Below are positions 3,245 through 5,927 of a stretch of 54,292 nucleotides of DNA, piece after piece (the first letter of the stretch is position 1; each line of letters begins with the position of its first letter). The DNA is from Campylobacteraceae bacterium (GTDB lineage Bacteria > Campylobacterota > Campylobacteria > Campylobacterales > Sulfurovaceae): the NCBI GenBank assembly GCA_027034975.1, contig JALVWQ010000015.1:1-54292 (forward strand), in the 5' to 3' direction. Position numbers and translations under genes: made by a program. A model generated the notes under the pieces. It made no database searches. It was not told the origin of the DNA and saw only the letters and a list, made by a program, of their open reading frames with translations.

Positions 3245-4177
3245 ATGCAGAGATTACTTCTATCTATCATCTCTATTCTACTTTTAACTACTACTCTATA
3301 CGCAAAACAGATAGAAGATATTGCTTTCAAAGAGTACCAAAATAAAAACTATACAAAAGCTCTTAAGCTCTATACCGAAGCTGCAACAAAAAAGAGTCTC
3401 AAGTCTCTCTTAATGTTAGGGCTCTTTTTCGAAAAAGGTCTTGGTATTCATGCGGATAAGAAAAAAGCTATCAAGATCTATCGGCTTATTTTAAAAAGAA
3501 CAAGCAATATTAAAGAGCTTCTTAAAGATGAGAAGAAGAGCGAAATAACCATTACAGCACTCCAAAGATTATCTGCACTTACTCAAAATAGAAAGTATCT
3601 TCAATTGGCTAAAAAGATTACACAACTCAAAGAGCAGATAAAAAATAAAGAGCAGCCACTTTTTAACAGAGAGACATCAATCGTTGATGATTTCTTTATA
3701 CTTTGCCCTTTTGCGGCACTTGTTGCTCCTGAAGATAGAGAGGGTATAGAGAGTTTCGATTGTGCACTTTTTGAAAACTTTCCTAAAAGAATGGTACTTT
3801 TTATGAAACTTCGAAGATTACGATTTGAGCTCCTCAATACCCAGAAGAGAAACTTTGCACTCAAACTACAAAAACTCGATAGAAAAATAGCACAACTTAT
3901 AAAACCTATGCTTCAATTTCTCCAAAAAGAGGCTATAGAGTGTTATCAAAATAGTGAAACAAATAGCGATATCAAAATATGCGACTACGACTATCTACTT
4001 AAGAGCGATCCACTCCTCTTTGATAATGCAGCCTATAAGATGGAGCAAGCACTCAATAAAAAGAGTATGAAAGAGCATAAGTTGGATATTTTTGAGAAAA
4101 ATGACCTCATTAACAACTTAATTAAAAAAATTTCTCGCAATGAGTATGGCAAACCTTGGAGGAATATGATACAATAA
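3245..4177 (+). CDS. Exported Sel1/TPR-like protein of unknown function
   Basis: 310 residues with an N-terminal signal peptide (hydrophobic LLLSIISILLLTTTLYA, cleavage likely after YAK or nearby). Residues ~25-95 contain a Sel1/TPR-like pattern: FKEYQNKNYTKALKLYTEAA then LLMLGLFFEKGLG. The remainder is helical and charged, with four cysteines (CPF, DCALF, IECYQN, KICDYD) that could form disulfides in the periplasm. I do not recognise a named family. A ribosome-binding site AAAAGGG precedes the ATG. It is followed 18 bases later by the small zinc-ribbon gene. Confidence 0.75.
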   Translation: MQRLLLSIISILLLTTTLYAKQIEDIAFKEYQNKNYTKALKLYTEAATKKSLKSLLMLGLFFEKGLGIHADKKKAIKIYRLILKRTSNIKELLKDEKKSEITITALQRLSALTQNRKYLQLAKKITQLKEQIKNKEQPLFNRETSIVDDFFILCPFAALVAPEDREGIESFDCALFENFPKRMVLFMKLRRLRFELLNTQKRNFALKLQKLDRKIAQLIKPMLQFLQKEAIECYQNSETNSDIKICDYDYLLKSDPLLFDNAAYKMEQALNKKSMKEHKLDIFEKNDLINNLIKKISRNEYGKPWRNMIQ

Positions 4178-4195
4178 AGAGAAAAAGGAGAAACA

Positions 4196-4447
4196 ATCGA
4201 TCTTTTTACAGTTTTTCTAATTATATTTATCTTAGTTGCTTCTATTATTGGGTATACATACTACCTTAGAGAGAAAAACATTGAGTATTCACAAGCAAAC
4301 AATGGTCTCTGTCCAAAGTGCAAAAATAGAAGTATTGAGCTTGTCGATGTAAGAGGAAGTGGTTGCTCTCCAAAAATTGTTACCTATCGCTGCTATCACT
4401 GCGGTTACGAAAATAGTTTTACCCAATCCTCTAGCTGTTCATTATAG
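4196..4447 (+). CDS. Small membrane zinc-ribbon protein with apparent ATC start
   Basis: An open frame runs from the stop at 4175 to TAG at 4445 and has no in-frame ATG, GTG or TTG. A strong AAGGAG (4185-4190) sits five bases before an ATC at 4196, which would give 83 residues. Residues ~3-24 form one membrane helix. The rest holds CPKC (39-42) and CYHC (66-69), a two-knuckle zinc ribbon, and a Ser/Cys-rich tail. Codon use looks coding throughout. Either AUC is used as a rare start, as AUU is in infC of other bacteria, or a sequencing error hides an ATG. Confidence 0.7.
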   Translation: MDLFTVFLIIFILVASIIGYTYYLREKNIEYSQANNGLCPKCKNRSIELVDVRGSGCSPKIVTYRCYHCGYENSFTQSSSCSL

Positions 4448-4525: not shown

Positions 4526-5122
4526 ATGGTAGAGTTAAACAAAGAGAGAATAGAGATACTTTTAAAAATTGCTAAAGAAAGCATTCAAGAGGCCGTAACA
4601 GGAGAAAAAATTATCAATAAAAATAAGCTTATCGAGAAATTTCCATGGCTTCAAGAGAAAGGAGCTGTTTTTGTGACAATTAATAAAGAGCACCATCTGC
4701 GTGGCTGTATAGGTTCTATTATTGCTCATCGAACTCTTTTAGAAGATTTAATAGAGAATGCTAAATCTGCAGCCTTAAGAGATCCTCGCTTTAAACCACT
4801 TCAAAGAGAGGAGCTTCAAGATATTGAAATTGAGATTTCAATTTTGACTCCACCAAAAGAGTTACCATACAAAGATAGTGCAGATCTAAAACAGAAGATT
4901 AAAAAAGGGAGAGATGGGGTTATTATAAGCTATAATGGTTATCAAGCCACCTATCTTCCCTCTGTTTGGGAGCAGTTGGATAGTTTTGAGCATTTCTTTA
5001 CAACTTTATGCCAAAAAGCAGGGCTTCCTAGCAACTGTTTAGATCTCCACCCAACTATCTACACTTATAGAGCAATCAAAATTAAAGAAGAGCCTCCTCA
5101 AAGGGGATATAGTGAAAAATAA
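4526..5122 (+). CDS. AMMECR1-domain protein (AmmeMemoRadiSam system protein A)
   Basis: 198 residues covering a full AMMECR1 domain. The family hallmark LRGCIGS is at 58-64, followed by AALRDPRFKPL and ISILTPP blocks. The biochemical role of bacterial AMMECR1 proteins is unsettled; they are usually encoded with a MEMO-like protein and a radical SAM enzyme. Here the MEMO partner follows with an 11-bp overlap, but no radical SAM gene is adjacent. The ATG at 4526 has an AGGAG site about six bases upstream. Confidence 0.9.
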   Translation: MVELNKERIEILLKIAKESIQEAVTGEKIINKNKLIEKFPWLQEKGAVFVTINKEHHLRGCIGSIIAHRTLLEDLIENAKSAALRDPRFKPLQREELQDIEIEISILTPPKELPYKDSADLKQKIKKGRDGVIISYNGYQATYLPSVWEQLDSFEHFFTTLCQKAGLPSNCLDLHPTIYTYRAIKIKEEPPQRGYSEK

Positions 5123-5927
5123 GAGTATTCGCAAAGCCTATAATGCTGGTCGCTACTACCCTGGTTCAAAAGAGGAGATAGAGAAGTTTTTTACACTCTT
5201 TAACCACTCTCTTGAACAAGCAGAAGATAGCAAAGAGCGACTCTCTATCAATCCACAAGCAGTTATAGCTCCACATGGAGAGTACTATCTCAGTGGATTT
5301 ACAGCAAATATTGCCCATCGACTTTTAGCAAAAAGAAGAGTAAAAAGAGTTGTTGTAATTGCTGCAGCAGAGAATATTCCTTTTAAAGGGGTAGCTACTG
5401 TCGATTTCGAATATTACGAAACCCCACTAGGAGAACTAAAAGTTGATCGAGACTATCTTGGTGTAATCGCAACACATTTTCCTATTACTCTTATAGAAAG
5501 TGGCTATAAACAGGAGTATAAAACAGAGATACAGATGCCTTTTATTGCACACTACCAGCCAGAGGTAGAAGTGATAGAGCTACTCTACAATGATTCCAGC
5601 CCAAAACTACTTGAAGAGTTACTCTATTGGCTACTCGAAGACAGTTTAACATCTATAGTTCTTAGCAGTAACCTTAGTCAAAATGTTTCTGAAAAACTTG
5701 GCAATACCCTCGACACATTTGCAATAAATGCCATTGCACACCAAAATATCTCGATGTTTCATGAGGCAGAAGCAAGTAGTAAAGAAGGTATAGAAGCTCT
5801 CTTAAAAAGTACCCATAATCTCAATTTATCAAGCCATATACTTGATTACCGAACATCAACAGATGTTACAGGCAATCCAGAAGAGTGCACCGGTTACACC
5901 AGTGCCGCTTTTTGTAAAGTAGAGTAA
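5112..5927 (+). CDS. MEMO-like protein (AmmeMemoRadiSam system protein B), altered active site
   Basis: 271 residues, GTG start inside the AMMECR1 gene after GGGG-rich ribosome-binding sequence. The MEMO fold is recognised by RYYPGSKEEI, IAPHGEYYLSG (H55 retained), YETPLGELKVD, EIQMPF and the C-terminal GYTSAAF. The family is related to LigB dioxygenases. The usual GPSHH or GPNH stretch is AAAEN here (E87 where the second His is expected), and SSD..H reads SSNLSQN. Three of the expected ligand residues are therefore changed. Membership is clear; retained catalytic or metal-binding function is doubtful. Confidence 0.88.
   Translation: MKNKSIRKAYNAGRYYPGSKEEIEKFFTLFNHSLEQAEDSKERLSINPQAVIAPHGEYYLSGFTANIAHRLLAKRRVKRVVVIAAAENIPFKGVATVDFEYYETPLGELKVDRDYLGVIATHFPITLIESGYKQEYKTEIQMPFIAHYQPEVEVIELLYNDSSPKLLEELLYWLLEDSLTSIVLSSNLSQNVSEKLGNTLDTFAINAIAHQNISMFHEAEASSKEGIEALLKSTHNLNLSSHILDYRTSTDVTGNPEECTGYTSAAFCKVE

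Follow-up and report, generated by a model that had tools for sequence, protein, structure and literature searches.

Comparison of homologous sequences indicates that a real, conserved gene encoding a membrane-anchored zinc-ribbon protein of 83 residues is most probably translated from an AUC codon at position 4196 of the 54,292-nucleotide stretch of Campylobacteraceae DNA analysed here (the window). Its output is probably lowered as a result, with a strong Shine-Dalgarno (SD) sequence compensating for the weak codon. Read directly from the window, the frame from 4178 to 4447 on the forward strand contains not one ATG, GTG or TTG codon. An ORF caller restricted to these three starts left the frame off its list, as a preliminary description of this DNA had foreseen for gene finders, and that description was also accurate in its letters and coordinates, namely an 83-codon frame and an AAGGAG five bases 5' of an ATC (Table 1). 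Translation across the start, beginning directly after the TAA of the upstream gene, reads R-E-K-G-E-T-(ATC)-D-L-F-T. The upstream gene itself matches Sel1 repeats at E 1e-4, which is under the Pfam cut-off. The zinc-ribbon ORF has a codon-usage score of -1.4, which is not gene-like but may be normal for so short a membrane protein.

Table 1. Positions in the window of the zinc-ribbon gene, its initiation signals and its neighbours.
Feature	Position	Strand	Basis or remark
TAA stop of upstream Sel1-like gene (gene 3245-4177)	4175-4177	+	18 nt 5' of the ATC
Shine-Dalgarno AAGGAG	4185-4190	+	5-nt spacer AAACA, then start codon
ATC start codon (fMet expected)	4196-4198	+	Comparison of homologues; next codon GAT, same in most homologues
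Coding sequence, 83 codons plus TAA (4445-4447)	4196-4447	+	Predicted membrane-anchored zinc-ribbon protein, without Pfam or NCBIfam family
N-terminal helix, residues 3-35	4202-4300	+	AlphaFold2 model pLDDT 89; alignment
Zinc ribbon, three strands	4310-4420	+	CPKC 4310-4321, C57 4364-4366, CYHC 4391-4402; alignment and AlphaFold2 model
Invariant C81, C-terminal to ribbon	4436-4438	+	
AMMECR1 (AmmeMemoRadiSam system protein A)	4526-5122	+	Downstream neighbour in the window and in G001 only

The frame is under purifying selection, with a dN/dS of 0.14 against its closest relative and of 0.01-0.08 in five other pairs. Homologues were matched in 52 of 99 relatives, and a profile found them in 131 of 175 genomes from the window's family. 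They come nearly all from this family (the Sulfurovum/Nitratifractor group, Campylobacterota that oxidise sulfur), the named relatives being Sulfurovum, Nitratifractor and Campylobacteraceae MAGs. Both the membrane helix and the two CxxC knuckles that had been described are present (C39/C42 and C66/C69), and the homologue alignment contains an invariant CPxC...CxxC pattern together with an additional GC motif and a Cys close to the C-terminal end. The hydrophobic membrane stretch of the helix spans approximately residues 3-24 and is followed by LREK, so that by the positive-inside rule the ribbon is probably cytoplasmic. The ribbon would be expected to bind zinc.

Scans of the protein against Pfam and NCBIfam gave nothing above the curated cut-offs, the best matches falling far below them. 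The best structural match, a weak one (E 0.03, TM 0.42), was to the zinc ribbon of NrdR, which has the same three-stranded CxxC...CxxC ribbon, and the best sequence matches were to ribbons of RNA polymerase (E 0.04); none of these is significant. Unlike NrdR and the RNA polymerase ribbons, the protein carries a membrane helix at its N-terminus and has two more Cys residues, a conserved one in a GC(S/G)P motif and one near the C-terminus, and it is too small to contain the ATP-cone of NrdR.

Start codons were compared in 131 distinct homologues, a set that differs in part from the 131 genomes above in that it comprises the family and a few members of the order. Fifty starts were checked by hand and the others were placed by tblastn, with one corrected. 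The homologous codon is ATG in 64 sequences, ATC in 48, ATA in 10, ATT in one, GTG in four and TTG in four, and nothing else occurs. Thus, 59 of the 131 homologues have an AUH start (ATC, ATA or ATT), always at the same position, and the remainder have only NUG. All ten homologues in the window's genus have ATC or ATA, and AUH starts are also found in much of the family. The orthologue comparison for which the preliminary description had called thus had the outcome it foresaw, giving ATC or ATA within the genus, with ATG, GTG and TTG appearing as well elsewhere; the position was constant and no other in-frame start was shared among the homologues.

The codons permitted at this position are informative. 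Valine is encoded there only by GTG and leucine only by TTG, whereas a few residues later GTN, CTN and TTA are common; this restriction to AUH and NUG marks the codon as a start rather than as an Ile codon read in elongation. Several homologues (L005, L008, L013, L014, L025, L117 and L129) have an in-frame stop 1-4 codons 5' of the AUH, which leaves no space for an alternative start. Among the AUH genes identity is 1.00 at codon 1 (by definition of the class) and 0.90 at codon 2, and it is 0.14-0.17 at the two codons directly before the start, with amino-acid conservation upstream limited to the SD codons further 5'. Initiation at the AUC at 4196 is thus strongly supported by the homologous sequences. 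The best tree, built from 90 columns and with stars on 15 of its 127 inner branches, requires 16 changes between AUH and NUG, of which the starred branches force only two because the tree is poorly resolved. Judged from these sequences, the near-cognate start looks genuine, and looks to have been kept, lost and regained in evolution.

AUH genes also differ from their ATG relatives in the SD. They hold the SD core in a fixed register, with G at -9 in all 59 and A at -11 in 58 of them, while ATG genes vary in both SD position and strength; the mean SD:anti-SD energy is -8.4 kcal/mol in AUH genes and -5.9 kcal/mol in ATG genes. Because the sequences are related, the comparison was repeated on edge-disjoint tree pairs. 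The starred branches alone gave too few pairs, and the whole best tree was used instead, which is weaker evidence. Here the AUH member had the stronger SD in 12 of 13 informative pairs (p = 0.003) and kept the register 10:0 (p 0.002), both p values being approximate because the tree is weakly resolved. Across these sequences, then, the comparison shows a strong SD compensating for the near-cognate start. The anti-SD sequence CCTCCTT is present and standard in three finished relatives; the 16S 3' end was not found in the window's own assembly. At -1 and -2 about 90% of AUH genes have pyrimidines, against about 55% of the remaining homologues; the window itself is an exception.

How might such a start work? 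We propose that the 30S subunit would be held at a fixed distance by the strong SD, and that initiator fMet-tRNA would pair with the AU of AUC, leaving the third base mismatched. The near-cognate codon would probably hold protein output well below the AUG level, and output may respond to the state of the initiation factors or to the supply of ribosomes from the upstream gene. Many relatives live with an ATG, so low yield from the start is not a strict requirement. The initiation machinery was searched for peculiarities. An odd initiator tRNA was sought in the genome, and a single ordinary one was found (CAU, C1-A72, GGG/CCC anticodon stem) among three CAU tRNAs. An AUH start was also sought for infC, the gene for IF3, in this genome and in relatives from the order; infC starts instead at TTG, which is conserved and preceded by a purine-rich SD, both here (G000:C47:83023) and in nearly all of the relatives sampled (L051-L080). 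Sensitivity of the AUC start to IF3, as suggested in the preliminary description, is plausible, but feedback through IF3 is not to be assumed given the UUG start of infC.

The AUC might reflect tolerated drift rather than regulation, with the gene of a protein in low demand free to move between AUG and near-cognate codons provided that its SD is strong. The 16 switches on the best tree, with SD strength tracking them, are what such drift would give. Against this, all homologues in the window's genus have AUH (10/10), which has been kept across much of the family as well, and ATT makes up only one of the 59 AUH starts compared with 129 of 387 internal Ile codons in the same genes, a scarcity that plain drift does not lead one to expect. 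Drift has a modest chance of being the explanation.

A similarly modest chance attaches to termination-reinitiation, in which the protein would come mainly from ribosomes that finish the upstream gene on the SD and restart at the nearby AUH, their local supply making the codon of little importance. A same-strand gene ends ≤60 nt upstream in 44 of the 59 AUH genes, and in 24 of them it does so at exactly 10 nt, its TAA lying within TAAGGAG and so overlapping the SD. This arrangement suggests that reinitiation may add to expression without being required for it. Coupling is, however, equally frequent in relatives with ATG, GTG or TTG (56/72), and it is not obligatory, as 13 of the 59 AUH genes (L005, L006, L008, L014 and others) have a divergent upstream gene. 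Nor is the neighbour constant: at least four unrelated types of gene (Sel1-like, YgjP-like, MORN lipoprotein and others) lie upstream of the homologues. The position between a Sel1-like gene and AMMECR1, which had been proposed as a guide to orthologues, is shared with the closest relative and is not conserved beyond it. In many Sulfurovum-type genomes the zinc-ribbon gene is instead flanked by a truncated-globin gene and by one for a YgjP-like metallopeptidase; an MsrA/MsrB-like gene, so called because of its sequence, lies further along. In the window, the genes for AmmeMemoRadiSam proteins A and B adjoin each other directly downstream (4526-5927).

It is very unlikely that there is no initiation at AUC and that ribosomes enter the frame by readthrough or frameshifting from the upstream gene. 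The upstream TAA (4175) of the window is in frame with the ATC, which would allow a readthrough fusion, but where AUH homologues have a close upstream gene its stop occurs in all three frames (31/8/5), and neither the SD nor the replacement of the AUH codon by NUG would have an explanation. With upstream genes that vary, end in all frames and are divergent in 13 cases, this is not a general mechanism. That the ATC is a misread or misassembled ATG, or belongs to a dying gene, is hardly credible even though the window's assembly has 68 contigs and is probably metagenome-derived, because purifying selection is strong and AUH codons stand at 59 distinct loci, one of which, with ATC, is in the finished, single-contig genome of Nitratifractor salsuginis (G029; chromosome of 2,101,285 bp; PMC3156401), which excludes read error for the family and bears out, at that level, the preliminary reading of the ATC as no misread ATG.

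We took a census of strong-SD AUH or CTG frames lying outside other genes in 1.767 of the 1.771 Mb of the window's genome (about 1,746 gene calls). This census misses AUH genes that have a canonical codon shortly downstream. It yielded 16 candidates, mostly poor, and the zinc-ribbon frame exceeds chance. A thiE-like gene (L256:1501; G000:C16:40585-41118), in which TMP-TENI scores just under the Pfam cut-off for the part scanned, starts at ATA; eight of the nine genus members found have ATA or ATC and the ninth has TTG, while several genomes outside the genus have ATG at or near the same position. A YgjP-like metallopeptidase gene (L356:1501; G000:C51:22073) has no canonical start near its N-terminus, and seven genus members have ATC, ATT, ATA or GTG after a conserved leader ending GGAGAAGAGTA. 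Its exact start is less certain because the codons before the AUH are also conserved. Thus, AUH starts in this genome are rare, but not unique.

Other candidates from this genome deserve mention. A lipoprotein-like ORF (G000:C47:84134-84169, reverse strand) has ATA behind a very strong SD, aagaggagggtaaat (-12.5 kcal/mol), and any later canonical start would remove its signal peptide. In a DUF898 gene (L346:1501; G000:C47:78991-79320) the first canonical start is 94 codons in; the ATC with an SD occurs in the window's genome only, and as a start it is unproven since the relatives have variable N-termini. A BFD-like candidate (C47:67133) was rejected as a broken gene, its relatives extending further upstream.

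One speculative and rather improbable extension is that in Sulfurovum/Nitratifractor-type Campylobacterota AUC and AUA would serve as a common low-gain setting in a few genes (zinc-ribbon, thiE-like and ygjP-like). These genes would be controlled as a group at the proofreading of the initiation codon, and a mechanistic cause would lie behind the preference for AUC and the avoidance of AUU.

The combination of an AUH start with a strong SD is of an established kind. In E. coli, infC and pcnB have AUU starts that are discriminated by IF3. Like the zinc-ribbon gene, they place an AUH start behind an SD and are expected to be initiated inefficiently and in an IF3-sensitive manner; in contrast to them, the zinc-ribbon product is neither a translation factor nor a poly(A) polymerase, and with infC of these bacteria starting at UUG an autoregulatory loop would not take the E. 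coli form. To our knowledge, natural AUC or AUA starts in bacteria are limited to a handful of genes. A literature search for AUH starts in Campylobacterota found none, which does not prove their absence.

A close parallel comes from Staphylococcus aureus, where cvfC1 (AUU), ccpN (AUA) and infC (AUA) have conserved non-canonical starts with unusually strong SDs, extended in cvfC1 and ccpN, and reporters gave about 10-30% of the AUG yield (PMC13009471). The zinc-ribbon gene shares with these three a conserved AUH start and an unusually strong SD, and the cvfC1 product is likewise described as small and as having a putative zinc finger. The zinc-ribbon protein differs from the S. aureus proteins in being membrane-anchored, and its start has been recognised from sequence alone. 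Its family also differs in that AUC dominates and AUU is nearly absent, and in that the start switches to AUG, GUG or UUG in relatives. The novelty lies in a protein family whose near-cognate starts are mainly AUC and avoid AUU, and in which AUH and NUG have replaced each other many times. Gene finders that accept only ATG, GTG and TTG will miss or truncate conserved genes of this kind. Almost half of the family uses AUH, and with a start that has changed repeatedly to AUG and back, and an SD that has changed in step, the family constitutes a natural experiment on how SD strength makes up for a weak start codon.
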